From: Planctomyces sp.
GTDB lineage: Bacteria > Planctomycetota > Planctomycetia > Planctomycetales > Planctomycetaceae
NCBI GenBank assembly: GCA_019636235.1
Contig: JAHBXW010000005.1
Span: 124,001-188,000 of the forward strand
Reading direction: 5' to 3'
Length of the DNA stretch: 64,000 nt
The position numbers and the translations under genes are program-made. A model generated the notes under the pieces. The model saw only the letters and a list, made by a program, of their open reading frames with translations. It was not told the DNA's origin and searched no databases. Of this stretch, positions 1,998 to 53,251 are shown piece by piece. The first letter of the stretch is position 1. Each line of letters opens with the position of its first letter.

Positions 1998-4106
1998 ATG
2001 ATGCGCTCGATCCTGCTGCTCTCTCCCGCGTGGTTGTTGACCGTTCTCGTCCCGCTGGCCTTCGCGGCCGAGCCGGCATCCCCCGGGGACGCGGCGCTCC
2101 GCATCTACTTTGAGAATGAAACGGCGGCGCTTGAGGCCGCATCGCTTTCCGAAATCGAGACGGCCGACGACTGGAACCGCCTCGTTCCGGAGTACCGTCG
2201 CCAGCTTCGCGAAATGCTGGGGCTCGATCCGCTCCCCGAGCGGACGCCGCTGGAAGCGGTCGTCGCCCGGACCTTCGCACATGAAGGCTTCACCGTCGAG
2301 AACCTGCACTTCCAGTCCTCGCCCGGGCTGTACGTCACGGGCAACCTGTACGTCCCTGCAGGCCTGACCGGCCCCGCGCCGGCGATCCTGTACGTCTGCG
2401 GCCACGCCCCGGTGAAAGCCAACGGCGTCAGCTATGGCAACAAGACCGCCTATCAGCACCACGGCATCTGGTTCGCGCGGCATGGCTACGTGTGCCTCGT
2501 CATCGACACGCTCCAGCTCGGCGAGATCGAAGGCCTGCATCACGGGTTGTATCGCGAGAACCAGTGGTGGTGGCTGGCCCGGGGCTACACGCCGGCGGGC
2601 GTCGAAGCCTGGAACTGCATTCGGGCGCTGGACTATCTGCAGTCTCGCCCCGAGGTGGACGGAGAGCGAATCGGCGTCACCGGCCGCTCGGGCGGCGGCG
2701 CGTACAGCTGGTGGATCGCGGCGATCGATGAACGCATCCGCTCGGCCGTCCCGGTGGCCGGCATCACCAGCCTCAGGAATCATGTGGTCGATGGCTGCAT
2801 CGAAGGGCACTGCGACTGCATGTATCAGTTCAACCTGTATCGCTGGGATTACCCGCAGGTCGCGGCGCTCGTCGCCCCCCGACCGCTTCTGATCTCGAAC
2901 ACCGACAAGGACTCCATCTTCCCGCTGGACGGCGTCGTCGACGTGCACGCCAAGGTCCGCCGCATCTACCGGCTGCTGGACGCTGACAAACAGCTCGGTC
3001 TGCAGATCACCGAGGGGCCTCACGAGGACACGCAGGAGCTGCACATTCATTCCTTCGTGTGGATGAACCGCTTCGTGAAGGGGCAGGAAGCGCCGATCGA
3101 GGTCGCGGCCGCCCCGCTGTTCGAACCCGAACAGTTGCGGGTGTTCCAGGAGCTGCCCGCCGATCAGATCAACTCGCGCATCCAGGAGCGGTTCGTGCCG
3201 CAGGCGGCGCTGTCGGTCCCCTCGCGGGGGCAGTGGGAGGGCGAATGCCAGACGCTTCTGGAACGACTGCGGGACAAGGTCTTTCGCGGCTGGCCGGAAG
3301 GGCCGACGTCGATCGCCGACCTGCAGCTCCGCGAGACGTCGCGGGCGCGCTCCGGCCGGTTCGAACTCGTGCATTACGAACTGGCGAGCCAGGCGGCGTT
3401 CCGGCTGCCGCTGACGGTCCTCCGCCCGATCTCTTCGGAGGGGGAAGCCGGTCCGGGCGACCTGACGTTGATCGTCTGCGATCAGCCCCGCTGGGAATCG
3501 ACGTCGGCCGAGCTGGCGGCTCTGTTTCCGACGCGACCGGCCGATTCCGAGGCGGCATCGGATGCGGCGGACGATCGCATCCAGGCCCTGCTCGGCGAAG
3601 GCGTGGGGGCGCTGGCGTGGTTCGCGCCGCGGGGCGTCGGTCCGACGGAGTGGAACCGGGATGACCGGCGGCGAACGCACATCCGCAGGCGTTTCGGATT
3701 GCTCGGTCAGACCGAGGACGGCATGCGCGTGTATGACGTGCGGCTGGCGATGCAGGCGGCCCGGTCGCTGACGGATGGAGCGCGGCGGCGGCTGCGAATC
3801 GAAGGGGACGGAGATGCCGCGGTGTGGGCGTTGTACGCGACGTTGTTCGAGCCGCCGGTGCGGTCGCTGCGGGCGACTTCGCTGCCCGCGGATCATGCCT
3901 CCGGGCCGATGCTGTTCAATGTGTTGCGGGTCACGACGCTGGCGCGGAGCCTGGCGACGGCGGCCGGCCGCACGCGGGTGACGGCGTCGTTCCGGGAAGC
4001 GTCACCGGAAACGCTGGAAGAACTTGCGTCGCTGCGTGAGACCCTGGGCGACGATGTGCTGCGGTTGGACCTCCAGGCGGGTCCGACGGATGTCAGCGAT
4101 CGTTGA
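1998..4106 (+). CDS. Secreted alpha/beta hydrolase (acetyl-xylan-esterase/dipeptidyl-peptidase-like), two-part protein
   Basis: The 702-residue protein has a Sec signal peptide (residues 1-25, hydrophobic core followed by AFAAEP). An alpha/beta hydrolase domain covers roughly residues 100-380: the nucleophile elbow GRSGGGAYSWW puts the Ser near 231, an acidic residue lies in LLISNTDKDSIFP, and the His is probably in EGPHEDTQE or just after. This resembles planctomycete xylan-esterase-like hydrolases that act on acylated polysaccharides. Residues about 400-700 form a second region without a recognisable catalytic elbow; it may be a degenerate second hydrolase domain. Two adjacent ATGs follow a GAGGAG ribosome site. 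The exact substrate cannot be inferred. Confidence 0.82.
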   Translation: MMRSILLLSPAWLLTVLVPLAFAAEPASPGDAALRIYFENETAALEAASLSEIETADDWNRLVPEYRRQLREMLGLDPLPERTPLEAVVARTFAHEGFTVENLHFQSSPGLYVTGNLYVPAGLTGPAPAILYVCGHAPVKANGVSYGNKTAYQHHGIWFARHGYVCLVIDTLQLGEIEGLHHGLYRENQWWWLARGYTPAGVEAWNCIRALDYLQSRPEVDGERIGVTGRSGGGAYSWWIAAIDERIRSAVPVAGITSLRNHVVDGCIEGHCDCMYQFNLYRWDYPQVAALVAPRPLLISNTDKDSIFPLDGVVDVHAKVRRIYRLLDADKQLGLQITEGPHEDTQELHIHSFVWMNRFVKGQEAPIEVAAAPLFEPEQLRVFQELPADQINSRIQERFVPQAALSVPSRGQWEGECQTLLERLRDKVFRGWPEGPTSIADLQLRETSRARSGRFELVHYELASQAAFRLPLTVLRPISSEGEAGPGDLTLIVCDQPRWESTSAELAALFPTRPADSEAASDAADDRIQALLGEGVGALAWFAPRGVGPTEWNRDDRRRTHIRRRFGLLGQTEDGMRVYDVRLAMQAARSLTDGARRRLRIEGDGDAAVWALYATLFEPPVRSLRATSLPADHASGPMLFNVLRVTTLARSLATAAGRTRVTASFREASPETLEELASLRETLGDDVLRLDLQAGPTDVSDR

Positions 4107-45443: not shown

Positions 45444-45956
45444 TCAGACCCGATCGCCGGGCATCGGCCCCTTCGGCGGCCCCTCCAGCACCGGTTCGAA
45501 CTGCCCCTCCAGACGCGTCAGCGCGTCCGCGGGGTTCATGTTGAACAGGGCCTTGCCTCCCGTGCCCCAGCGGGACGACTGATAGTGAAACACGGCCGCC
45601 GCGTCCCGAATGGTGCTGACCGCCTCCACGTCCTCCATGTCGCCCCCCGGCACGGCCTCGAAATGGATCTCCACTCCGACGAACGCCGTCAGCAGGCCCG
45701 ACTGCAAGTCCCGCGCGAATGTCACCGGCTCCTGCCAGTCGCATTCCTTCCAGATCAGCCCCCGCGGCTTCCCCAGCCGGGACGCCAGCTCAACAAACTT
45801 CGCCTCCAGCCCCTCGCGGCGCACTTTGAACTCGCGAATCGCCATCCGGGCTTGGCGGGCACGACGCCACCGGCGCAGCGGCTGGGCGGCGATCGACGCG
45901 CCCATCGCCACCGAAATCGCCAGAGCGGCGATGATCACCGGCTCCGTCATCTCCAC
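45444..45956 (-). CDS. Small membrane-anchored protein, unknown
   Basis: The 170-residue protein has an N-terminal hydrophobic helix (about 6-25, VIIAALAISVAMGASIAAQP) followed by a basic stretch RRWRRARQARM, which suggests an N-out/C-in anchor. The soluble part contains GLIWKECDWQEPVTFARDLQ and AVFHYQSSRWGTGGKALFNM, a beta-rich pattern I have no family name for. It starts at GTG (45956) five bases after AGGTGA. Between the repressor gene (63 bases upstream) and moxR (200 bases downstream), it may belong to the same minus-strand unit. Confidence 0.72.
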   Translation of the reverse strand: MEMTEPVIIAALAISVAMGASIAAQPLRRWRRARQARMAIREFKVRREGLEAKFVELASRLGKPRGLIWKECDWQEPVTFARDLQSGLLTAFVGVEIHFEAVPGGDMEDVEAVSTIRDAAAVFHYQSSRWGTGGKALFNMNPADALTRLEGQFEPVLEGPPKGPMPGDRV

Positions 45957-46019: not shown

Positions 46020-46961
46020 CTACCGCATCGGCCGCACGACGCCGATGATCGGATGCGCCCATTCCAGGCTGTCCGCCGGAATCCGCTGCGGCACATGCCG
46101 TTCGTTGATCGGGATCAGCAGCGCCTCGTCCCCCTCGCGGCGAAACAGCTTGCAGTTCACGCCGATCTGCCCGCGCTGCCGCGCGATGCACGGCTGCCCG
46201 TCCACAACCGGGAATGACGGAGACGCGACGACCAGGTCGCCGTCCCGAAACCGGGGCTCCATGCTGTCGCCGTCGATGCGCCAGGCCACGCACCGCGGAT
46301 CCCGGGCCTTCAGCGAGGCCGCCGCGACGAACTCCAGAATCCCCCGCTCGTCCGGCTCGGAACACTGCAGCAGCATCGGCGCCGCGGACGGGATCTCCGG
46401 CGTCAGTCCCTCGAACCGGGCCGAGGCCTTTTGCAGATCGCCGGCGGCCGCGCGCTCGATGAGCTCGCGCAGCCGCGCATCGGCCGACGCACTTTCCCGG
46501 ACACCGGGCAGCTCGCTCCAGTACCGGGCCGGGCCGGCCGCCGTGCTGCCCACAATCGGAATCCACGCCTTTCGGTCCTCGGGAGCCCGTTGCGATCGGG
46601 ATCGCCCCTTCGCCGATTCGCCCGGACCCGACGCCCGCTCCAGCGCGTCCAGCATGCCCGACAAGGGCGACGCCAGCTCCGGACGGGCCTGCAGCAACGC
46701 CTCGACGCGCACCGCCAGCGGCGACTGGACCCCGTTCCTCGGCCCCGCCAACGCCTCGCCGTCCCCCGTAATCAACCACTCCAGTCGGACCCGCGCCAGC
46801 GACGCGGCTCGGTGCAGGACGTCCGCCGGCGGAATCCGGTCCTGTTCGTACTGGCTGTAGGTGCTGACCGGCACCTGCAGGTCTCTCGCAAACGCCGACC
46901 GTCCGCGAACCCCGTACAGACGTTCCCGCAGGTCCTTCAATCGTTCGCAGATGGCCGACAT
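46020..46961 (-). CDS. XRE-type HTH repressor with S24/LexA-like self-cleavage domain
   Basis: In this 313-residue protein, residues ~4-66 form a helix-turn-helix (RSAFARDLQVPVSTYSQYEQ). A linker leads to WIPIVGSTAAGPARYW, which resembles the LexA/CI cleavage site with Ala142-Gly143. The C-terminal S24 domain has GDSMEPRFRDGD (Ser233) and GVNCKLFRR (Lys271), the right spacing for a Ser-Lys dyad. About 50 extra residues separate the cleavage site from the Ser compared with LexA. It should repress transcription until RecA-type or other stress triggers cleavage. The start at 46961 is chosen because the upstream frame is not domain-like. It faces a small gene at 47047. Confidence 0.85.
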   Translation of the reverse strand: MSAICERLKDLRERLYGVRGRSAFARDLQVPVSTYSQYEQDRIPPADVLHRAASLARVRLEWLITGDGEALAGPRNGVQSPLAVRVEALLQARPELASPLSGMLDALERASGPGESAKGRSRSQRAPEDRKAWIPIVGSTAAGPARYWSELPGVRESASADARLRELIERAAAGDLQKASARFEGLTPEIPSAAPMLLQCSEPDERGILEFVAAASLKARDPRCVAWRIDGDSMEPRFRDGDLVVASPSFPVVDGQPCIARQRGQIGVNCKLFRREGDEALLIPINERHVPQRIPADSLEWAHPIIGVVRPMR

Positions 46962-46966
46962 TGTCC

Positions 46967-46980
46967 GTTTTGCGGAAAAC
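46967..46980. promoter_or_regulatory. Possible operator in the divergent repressor control region
   Basis: GTTTT-GCGG-AAAAC is a perfect five-base inverted repeat with a four-base centre, six bases upstream of the repressor start codon and in the 85-base divergent gap. It is a candidate site for autoregulation by the S24 repressor. It is short enough to be chance. Confidence 0.3.
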
Positions 46981-47046
46981 AGGCTTCTCATTTGACGCGA
47001 ATGCGTTAATCTGGCCCGGAGCTTACACGCCTGCGGAGCCAACATC

Positions 47047-47271
47047 ATGCGTCGCCGTCGCCCGACCTCCCACCCCGCGGCCCCTGCCCTTCGATCCGGC
47101 GCGTCCGAAGCCGAAGACCCTCTCGCCCAGATCCTTCGCGACCTCCAGGGGCTGTCGCAACTCCAAGCGTGGCAGCACACGCTCACCGAGTCAATCCGCC
47201 GCCAGTTCGAAGCGCTTGCCGGATCCGCGCCGGACCGACCGACCAGTCCATCGCTCCGTCGCGCTCACTAA
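47047..47271 (+). CDS. Small helical protein divergent from the S24 repressor
   Basis: The 74-residue protein has a basic N-terminus (MRRRRPTSHP) and one predicted amphipathic helix, DPLAQILRDLQGLSQLQAWQ, continuing into TLTESIRRQFEALAG. The C-terminus is Ser/Pro/Arg-rich. GGAG lies eight bases before the ATG, and the 85-base gap to the repressor start is a typical divergent control region. No family was recognised. It could be the target of the repressor or a partner protein. It ends two bases from the convergent peroxiredoxin stop. Confidence 0.65.
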   Translation: MRRRRPTSHPAAPALRSGASEAEDPLAQILRDLQGLSQLQAWQHTLTESIRRQFEALAGSAPDRPTSPSLRRAH

Positions 47272-47273
47272 AG

Positions 47274-47870
47274 TCACTTTCTCCGGGCGCCCTGCTTGCC
47301 GCGCGACGCTTTCTTCTTCGCCGCGGCCCCGGACGCCTTTGCGGCCCCGTCCCTGGCGGAGCGTCGGCTGGCCGCCTTCGCAGTCGGTTTCGCCGCCGGC
47401 GACGCTCCCTTCAGCGTCGCGAGCACCTCGGCCACATGTCCCGGCACCTTCACCTTCCGCCAGGCCGCCGCGATCCGGCCCGCGCCATCGATCACGAACG
47501 TCGACCGCTCGATCCCGAAGTACTTGCGGCCGTACATCGACTTTTCCGCCCACGCCCCGTACTTCTCCGCCACTTCGTGGTCCGCGTCCACCAGCAGTTG
47601 AAAGGGCAGCCCGAACTTCGCCGCGAACTTCGCATGCGACGACGCCGAGTCCGGGCTGATCCCCAGGACCACGGCATCAATGTCCGCGAACCGCGGCGCG
47701 GCGTCCCGGAAATCGCAGGCCTGCTGGGTGCAGCCCGACGTGTTGTCCTTGGGATAGAAGTAGACCACGACCGGCCGGCCCGCGAAGTCCTTCAGCCGGA
47801 CAATGCTGCCGTCCGCCGTCGGCAGCGCGAACGCCGGCGCCTTGTCGCCCGCTGAGACGAGTCCGCCCAT
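47274..47870 (-). CDS. Peroxiredoxin (BCP type) with a Lys/Ala-rich tail
   Basis: The 198-residue protein has residues 1-155 forming a bacterioferritin-comigratory-protein-type peroxiredoxin: VVVYFYPKDNTSGCTQQACD holds the peroxidatic Cys47 and resolving Cys52, and FGIERSTFVIDGAGRI is the later conserved block. It reduces peroxides using thioredoxin. The unusual part is residues ~157-198, a basic tail of Ala, Lys, Arg and Ser (for example AAAKKKASRGKQGARRK), like histone-H1 tails. GGAG precedes the ATG at 47870; an upstream frame extension is not needed. The gene is divergent from the dihydroorotase-like gene. Confidence 0.92.
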   Translation of the reverse strand: MGGLVSAGDKAPAFALPTADGSIVRLKDFAGRPVVVYFYPKDNTSGCTQQACDFRDAAPRFADIDAVVLGISPDSASSHAKFAAKFGLPFQLLVDADHEVAEKYGAWAEKSMYGRKYFGIERSTFVIDGAGRIAAAWRKVKVPGHVAEVLATLKGASPAAKPTAKAASRRSARDGAAKASGAAAKKKASRGKQGARRK

Positions 47871-51539: not shown

Positions 51540-53027
51540 TTACACGATCCGCAGTTCGTCGACCATCACGCAGCGGCGGCTGCGGGTGAACGTCTGCGGC
51601 GTCGTCACCCCCTCGCCCGTCGGCGTGGCGACGCTGAAAGACAGATAGCCTTCGCCGCCCAGACCCAGCCCCGCCATACAGGGACCGTTCTTGATGAACA
51701 ACGTCGTGTTCATCAGCCGCCCCATGATGGTCATGTTATGGACGTCCCGGGAGTGGATGATGGCCGTGTGGCCGAAGCCGTGCTCGAACTGATAGGCCAG
51801 CTCGATGGCGTGCAGCGCGTCCCGGGCGCGGACGAACGGGACGAACGGCATCATCTGCTCTTCGGGGACGAAGGGGTTCTCGGTCGTCGTCTCGCCATAC
51901 AGCAACTGCGTGCCCTGCGGAACGCGGACGCCGATCATCTCGGCCAGCACGGAGGCGTCCCGGCCGATCATGTCCCGATTCAGCAGCGGATGCCCGCCCG
52001 GCTCCTTCGGCGGCGCGAAGGCCAGCTTCGTGAGGGCTTCGATCTGCTGCGCGTTCAGCCGGTAGCCGCCGTGGCGGCTCATGGCCTCCAGCAGCCGGTC
52101 GAAGATGCTGTTCACGGCGAAGACTTCCTTCTCGCCGATGCAGAGCAGGTTGTTGTCGTAGGCGGCTCCCTGGACGATGCAGCGGGCGGCGTTTTCGATG
52201 TCGGCCGTCTCATCCACGACGACGGGCGGATTGCCCGGGCCGGCGACGACCGACTTCTTGCGGGCGGCCAGCGCCGCGCGGGCCACGGCCGGCCCCCCCG
52301 TGACGCACAGCATCCGCACGCCGCGGTGCTGGAAAATCTGATCAGCCGATTCGATCGTCGGCTGCTCGATGATGGTGATCAGGTTCTGGATGCCGATGGC
52401 GCTGGCGATGGCGCGATTGAAGCGGCGCACGCCCTCGCAGGCGATCCGGGCTCCGCTGGGGTGCGGGTTGAACACCACCGAATTGCCGGCCGCGGCCATG
52501 TTGACGACGTTGCCGGCCAGCGTGGGCAGCGAATGCGTGACGGGCGTGATGGCTCCGATGACGCCGAACGGCGCCTGCTCGATCATCGTCAGGCCGTGGT
52601 CGCCGCTGTACGCCGCGGGACGCAGGAACTCGGTCCCGGGGACGAGCTTGATGATCTTGAGTTTCTCGATCTTGTGATCGAGGCGGCCGATTTTCGTCTC
52701 TTCCAGTTCGGCGCGGCCCAGTTCCTCGGCCTGCTGTTCGCAGAGCGTCTTGACGATCTGGACGACCTTCTCGCGGTCGGCGACGGGTCGGCGGCGAAAC
52801 TCCTCGAACGCCTGGGTCGCGGCGGCGACAGCGTCATCGACGCTCTGGAACACGCCCTCCCGTCCCCCCTGGGCCCCGGGACGCGCACCGTTCGACAGGA
52901 CCGGAATGCCGCCGGCCGCGGGTGTGCTGCGCTGCGGGGCGGCCGCCCCTGACGTGCCCGGCCGTTTGCCGAGCTGCTGAAGAACTTCTTCCACGACGGC
53001 GCGAATGGTGGATTCCGTGGTCTGCAT
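51540..53027 (-). CDS. CoA-acylating aldehyde dehydrogenase (PduP/EutE type) of a microcompartment
   Basis: The 495-residue enzyme has an N-terminal amphipathic helix, [20 protein letters not shown], of the kind that targets cargo into microcompartments, then a ~35-residue Pro/Ala/Gly linker. The dehydrogenase domain has [35 protein letters not shown], and the catalytic Cys in [14 protein letters not shown]. It should oxidise an aldehyde (propionaldehyde or acetaldehyde/lactaldehyde) to acyl-CoA. In planctomycetes such enzymes serve a fucose/rhamnose-degrading microcompartment. It is directly followed by a BMC-P gene. Confidence 0.94.
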
Positions 53028-53251
53028 GGCAAATCCGGCAAAGTTTGGCGGTCGGAGCGATCCGCGCTGGGGCGGGGGCGTCCTGCTCCCGGAAGTAGAT
53101 CGGCCGGCATCAGGGGCCGGCACGCGACAATCCGGGGGCGGGCCGCCTGGGGGGAGACCGCCGCGGCGCAATTGTCCGCGTCGCAACGGCAACCGGGCGA
53201 GCCCGGGGTCGATTGACCGCGGGCGCGCGTCGGGTCCGCTGCGGGATCGGC

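Follow-up and report, generated by a model that had tools for sequence, protein, structure and literature searches.

The question raised by this locus is what is controlled by a planctomycete gene whose predicted product combines an XRE-type helix–turn–helix (HTH) with the elements of LexA-type self-cleavage, and which faces a gene of 74 codons. The pair lies in a stretch of 64,000 nucleotides from Planctomyces sp. (assembly GCA_019636235.1, contig JAHBXW010000005.1), here called the window, in a genome of 5.6 Mb on 45 contigs. A sequence-only reading of the locus had proposed a chromosomal stress switch controlling the small gene and perhaps a neighboring unit with moxR and hpnE. The features concerned are as follows:

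45444–45956, minus strand: orf170, no family match; directly after prxQ in the sister species, where the repressor and small genes are missing
46020–46961, minus strand: XRE-HTH and Peptidase_S24 repressor gene, 313 aa, ATG at 46961 (ORF list and Pfam)
46967–46980: inverted repeat GTTTT-GCGG-AAAAC, at chance level and not conserved
46992–47009: candidate operator, palindrome TTGACGC-GAAT-GCGTTAA, sole exact genome match, with an aligned site in the spacers of genus g16
47035–47038, plus strand: GGAG, ribosome-binding-site-like, before the small gene (read directly)
47047–47271, plus strand: small gene for a 74-aa protein with a basic N-terminus and a single predicted helix (residues 25–59), unnamed conserved family
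47274–47870, minus strand: prxQ/bcp-type peroxiredoxin gene, convergent with the small gene across a 2-base gap

Translation and Pfam analysis bore out the earlier description of the repressor as an XRE-HTH protein with Ala142-Gly143, Ser233, and Lys271. The protein is composed of an N-terminal HTH (HTH families; E values, 4e-5 to 6e-3) and a C-terminal S24 domain (Peptidase_S24; E value, 2e-14), as in the self-cleaving S24 (LexA/CI-type) class. The putative cleavage site is Ala142-Gly143 and the putative catalytic dyad is Ser233 and Lys271, with all positions checked on the translation. These features support the assignment of the gene to a self-cleaving-type repressor, with cleavage as a prediction.

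The protein departs from the class in one interval. Gly143 and Ser233 are 90 residues apart, and Ser233 and Lys271 are 38 apart. Because two other planctomycete S24 repressors that were measured (L023 and L024) have 38 and 37 residues at these intervals, the sequence-only reading was correct in counting ~50 extra residues between the site and Ser. A Gly-to-Ser stretch of 85–90 residues differs from the usual length in S24 repressors (~35–40). Since a short stretch is usual, with no known requirement for it, the repressor was filed as a variant of the self-cleaving S24 class. An AlphaFold2 model built from five rows had a mean pLDDT of 50.3; although the HTH scored higher than the remainder of the protein, the model was too poor for placing the cleavage site and the insert relative to Ser233. 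Compared with LexA, the repressor shares the Ala-Gly site, the Ser/Lys dyad, the Peptidase_S24 match, and a near-identical Ser-Lys spacing (38 here and, in the numbering we take for LexA, 37), but it carries an XRE-type rather than a winged HTH as well as the ~50 extra residues. Its score against the LexA model TIGR00498 was 24.6 bits, below the cut-off of 110.95.

To determine the distribution of the repressor, relatives were searched at several depths. Among 59 relatives, the full-length protein was found in two genomes (G000, which is the window genome, and G012). A profile search of 170 genomes of the family found it in five, belonging to three genera (G000, G012, and G470–G472), and a contig scan returned four repressor loci, in the same records as G012 and G470–G472. 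The motifs VGSTAAG, DGDSM, and VNCK are kept in the window repressor and its four relatives, so that the Ala-Gly site and the Ser/Lys dyad, for which the earlier reading had wanted homologues examined, are present throughout. Gly-to-Ser spacing was 85–90 and Ser-to-Lys spacing 38 in all five proteins, compared with a Gly-to-Ser spacing of 38 in two ordinary planctomycete S24 repressors, and the insert is therefore a real conserved feature of this five-member group. By eye, the proteins examined from L023–L047 (15 loci) had the ordinary spacing, L023 and L024 being the two that were measured; no protein from L040, L048, or L050 passed the motif filter used to extract this set.

Remote matches at the phylum and class levels were rejected as members of the group and represent other S24/XRE proteins. 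L003–L018 form a second class-level XRE group (family f2), often with several copies per genome and with S24-like C-termini; the proteins of this group that were examined lack the VGSTAAG cleavage site. The window genome also encodes a second full-length S24 protein (profile positions 1–116) at G000:C20:34811-35146, and a separate full-length S24 protein, which we take to be LexA, was present in all six genomes examined.

The gene facing the repressor was likewise as first described. The 74-codon frame is divergent from the repressor gene across a spacer of 85 bases and is preceded by the GGAG sequence. The frame is conserved in relatives, the point on which the earlier reading could have failed, and each of the five repressor loci has a small gene in divergent orientation. 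At G012/L022, two tandem copies face the repressor (2315–2515 and 2581–2742, minus strand). In the three genomes of genus g16, pS was 0.44–0.58 and pN 0.17–0.20 (dN/dS about 0.2–0.35), which marks the frame as coding and subject to purifying selection.

The small-protein family is about 60 residues long with one long predicted helix. For the window protein, AlphaFold2 gave a single helix over residues 25–59, in keeping with the helical protein first proposed, with pLDDT of 91–98 over blocks 31–60 and a low-confidence basic N-terminal start. Gln43 is invariant in an alignment of 15 rows, and Asp32, Gly35, Leu39, and Leu46 are nearly so. No convincing family for it was found in Pfam, NCBIfam, or PHROGs. 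Because a limited number of candidates was scored per genome, the genome counts that follow are lower bounds: a five-row profile had matches in 18 of the 170 family genomes at E ≤ 0.05, four of them weak (E 0.006–0.05; G026, G506, G508, and G525); with a 15-row profile, to which its own members match by construction, 15 of the 170 genomes, in six genera, had matches at E ≤ 0.01; and an even draw of 392 genomes across the phylum gave four matches, all within the family of the window genome. The small gene is also present at nine further loci examined that lack the repressor, of which five belong to a single genus. Thus, the small-gene family is wider than the repressor, and partnering the repressor cannot be the sole job of the small protein. 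In genus g5 (L088, L089, L090, L091, and L092), the small gene stands behind two conserved same-strand genes, presumably an LpoB-like gene and a COG3014-like lipoprotein gene.

The spacer between the two genes was examined for an operator. The inverted repeat GTTTT-GCGG-AAAAC, to which the sequence-only reading had drawn attention, is present next to the repressor start, but its suggested regulatory role did not hold: a perfect repeat with 5-bp arms arose in 243 of 500 spacer shuffles and none was found in the spacers of relatives, and it was rejected as the operator. Another palindrome, TTGACGC-GAAT-GCGTTAA, begins 12 bases beyond it. In the three g16 spacers, sites resembling TTGACGCAAATGGGTAAG occupy a constant position and align with this palindrome. 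Scored with a matrix of the g16 sites, the window spacer reached 14.5, a value attained by 3 of 2000 shuffles. Furthermore, T[TC]GACGC was found upstream of the small gene at four of the five repressor loci, compared with none of the nine repressor-less loci. The G012/L022 spacer contained no clear match to the motif, and since the three genomes of g16 are closely related to one another, the operator evidence amounts to two lineages.

Across the 5.6-Mb genome, TTRACGC-N4-GCGTYAA had one exact match, in the window spacer, and none at one mismatch. With two mismatches it occurred at 20 other places, compared with 64 for a reversed-pattern control. A wider regulon was rejected, as the palindrome matches showed no excess over the control, and the single exact occurrence supports a single local target for the repressor. 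A palindrome as good as this one (6 of 7 arm matches) appeared in 246 of 500 spacer shuffles; it is thus unremarkable in itself, and its weight comes from conservation and uniqueness only. From these two properties, TTGACGC-GAAT-GCGTTAA is the likely operator of the repressor. A promoter scan found no sigma-70-like promoter in the window spacer.

Taken together, we slightly favor the view that the pair is a chromosomal, locally acting, autoregulated, single-target switch built on a self-cleaving repressor. A repressor dimer would bind TTGACGC-N4-GCGTTAA in the 85-base spacer and would silence the small gene and, probably, the gene of the repressor itself. The cleavage trigger, judged from the class, would most likely be RecA on single-stranded DNA after DNA damage, and the Ser233/Lys271 dyad, judged from its conservation, would then cut Ala142-Gly143. 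With the DNA-binding half lost, the small helical protein would be made until fresh repressor builds up. The separate LexA would run the general SOS response, and the window repressor would control essentially one target. In favor of the switch, we counted the site and dyad in all five proteins, the facing small gene at all five loci, and the joint absence of both genes from the sister species; against it, we counted the rarity of the repressor (5 of 170 genomes) and the fact that it is missing from the sister species.

XRE-S24 repressors such as CI, HdiR, AlpR, and PrtR are often autoregulated and face one target operon. The window repressor resembles them in joining an XRE-HTH to an S24 domain and in having one facing target, but it has a long insert, its target would be a small helical protein, and no phage or pyocin-type genes lie nearby. 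A closer layout is found in Acinetobacter, where DdrR, a small corepressor whose gene is transcribed divergently, binds UmuDAb and helps it to repress (PMC11332147). That system and the window locus have in common a self-cleaving S24 repressor, a divergent small protein, a shared operator in the spacer (predicted in our case), and a LexA-like mechanism. They differ in that Acinetobacter lacks LexA and several umuDC/umuC genes are controlled there, whereas the window genome has a LexA-type protein and one predicted operator; the window repressor also carries the 50-residue insert. In the accessible part of the open-licence literature on S24 repressors, planctomycete SOS, and UmuDAb/DdrR, no description of the present pair was found.

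This likeness suggests that the small protein could be a DdrR/gp7-like partner that attaches to the repressor and raises (or lowers) its affinity for the operator, the two forming a two-protein repressor module. The layout is the same as that of umuDAb-ddrR (PMC11332147), the repressor never occurs without the small gene (five of five), and a single long predicted helix would suit protein binding. However, the small protein is likened to DdrR by layout and not by sequence, and the nine loci with the small gene, five in one genus, lie in genomes without this repressor. We regard this explanation as rather unlikely. By analogy, the small protein may still feed back on the repressor as DdrR does, but its wider occurrence implies another role besides any such feedback.

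The gene neighborhood offers a hint of that role. The small gene is convergent with prxQ at 10 of 14 loci (five with the repressor and nine without) and at four of the five repressor loci; at G012/L022, G465/L087, L093, and L094, the searched stretch gave no prxQ. As the pairing also occurs at repressor-less loci, it is independent of the repressor. This association, absent from the sequence-only reading, extends further than that of the small gene with the repressor. A functional tie to PrxQ is suggested by neighborhood alone, and we propose that the small protein belonged to the prxQ neighborhood earlier and independently, and that in three genera the repressor has brought it under inducible control. 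At its C-terminus, the window PrxQ carries a basic tail of ~40 residues rich in Lys and Ala, which is absent from the PrxQ of the sister species (154 aa).

The presence of a peroxiredoxin gene raises the question of whether the trigger might be something other than DNA damage, with the insert, or Cys258 and Cys270 near Lys271, sensing for example peroxide. The insert length is conserved in all five repressors, both cysteines are invariant in them, and prxQ accompanies the small gene at most of their loci. Yet the LexA-type site is intact, and G012 has no prxQ beside the pair. By eye, a Cys directly before the Lys is also found in 10 of 12 other planctomycete S24 repressors, and the remaining two (L044 and L047) have a Cys at the place of Cys258. 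Moreover, prxQ lies outside the predicted operator control and its pairing with the small gene does not require the repressor. Cys258 is probably beside Lys271, as judged by strand register and not from a structure. A non-damage trigger is thus improbable. Still less probable is the specific form in which the insert and Cys258 would allow oxidants, in place of RecA or alongside it, to initiate or prevent cleavage and so release a small helical protein acting with PrxQ.

The wider neighborhood agrees with the chromosomal setting of the single-target switch. As first noted, no phage genes lie nearby, the neighbors being orf170, moxR, an hpnE-like gene, prxQ, and metabolic genes. Control of the moxR/hpnE unit, also suggested at the outset, was rejected because the linkage is not conserved: the pair has other neighbors in genera g16 and g12, and neither moxR nor hpnE had a match in the 10 kb searched in the sister species. 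No RNA families or tRNAs were found in the window, and PADLOC gave no defense-system match. At 51540–53192, an aldehyde-dehydrogenase-like protein carries an N-terminal extension, which we presume to resemble the targeting peptides of planctomycete microcompartments.

In the sister species (G001, the one additional species found for the genus), a gene that we take to be dihydroorotase-like, prxQ, and orf170 stand in the same order, but neither the repressor gene nor the small gene is present at this site, and prxQ and orf170 are 160 bases apart. This comparison indicates that the pair is gained or lost as one unit. Loss in the sister species seems the simpler reading, since the small gene adjoins prxQ in other genera too; a prxQ tree of eight rows had too few supported forks to favor either gain or loss.

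Presence and absence at one site between sister species, together with the patchy distribution (5 of 170 genomes), would also fit a prophage or mobile-element remnant, in which a single early gene would have remained beside a CI-like repressor. The best phage-family match of the repressor was indeed the phrog_4 transcriptional repressor (E value, 1.5e-22), but the best stretch covers the S24 part only (residues 221–313), and five phage records likewise match the S24 half only (29–34% of the query). There was one weak viral contig match and no plasmid match, and a search for the small gene among viral sequences found no relative. Unlike a prophage CI repressor, the pair is not set among phage genes; between prxQ and orf170 there are only these two genes, and the small gene is conserved beside prxQ. 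A phage or plasmid origin of the pair was rejected given the weak or missing matches in phage, viral, and plasmid searches, and the remnant explanation, which we hold to be very unlikely, is largely disfavored.

Other bacteria already provide examples of this kind of system and of its general principle. What is new here is the insert, the family of small proteins, and the use of such a repressor on a single target in the presence of LexA. On the favored reading, a self-cutting repressor of the LexA type would have been reduced to a local switch for one target, in a planctomycete that has retained LexA itself. The locus also delineates a family of small proteins, so far unnamed, that is tied to prxQ and whose regulation would be added or lost as a unit, and it provides a compact system for asking what the insert between the cleavage site and Ser and the small helical protein do.
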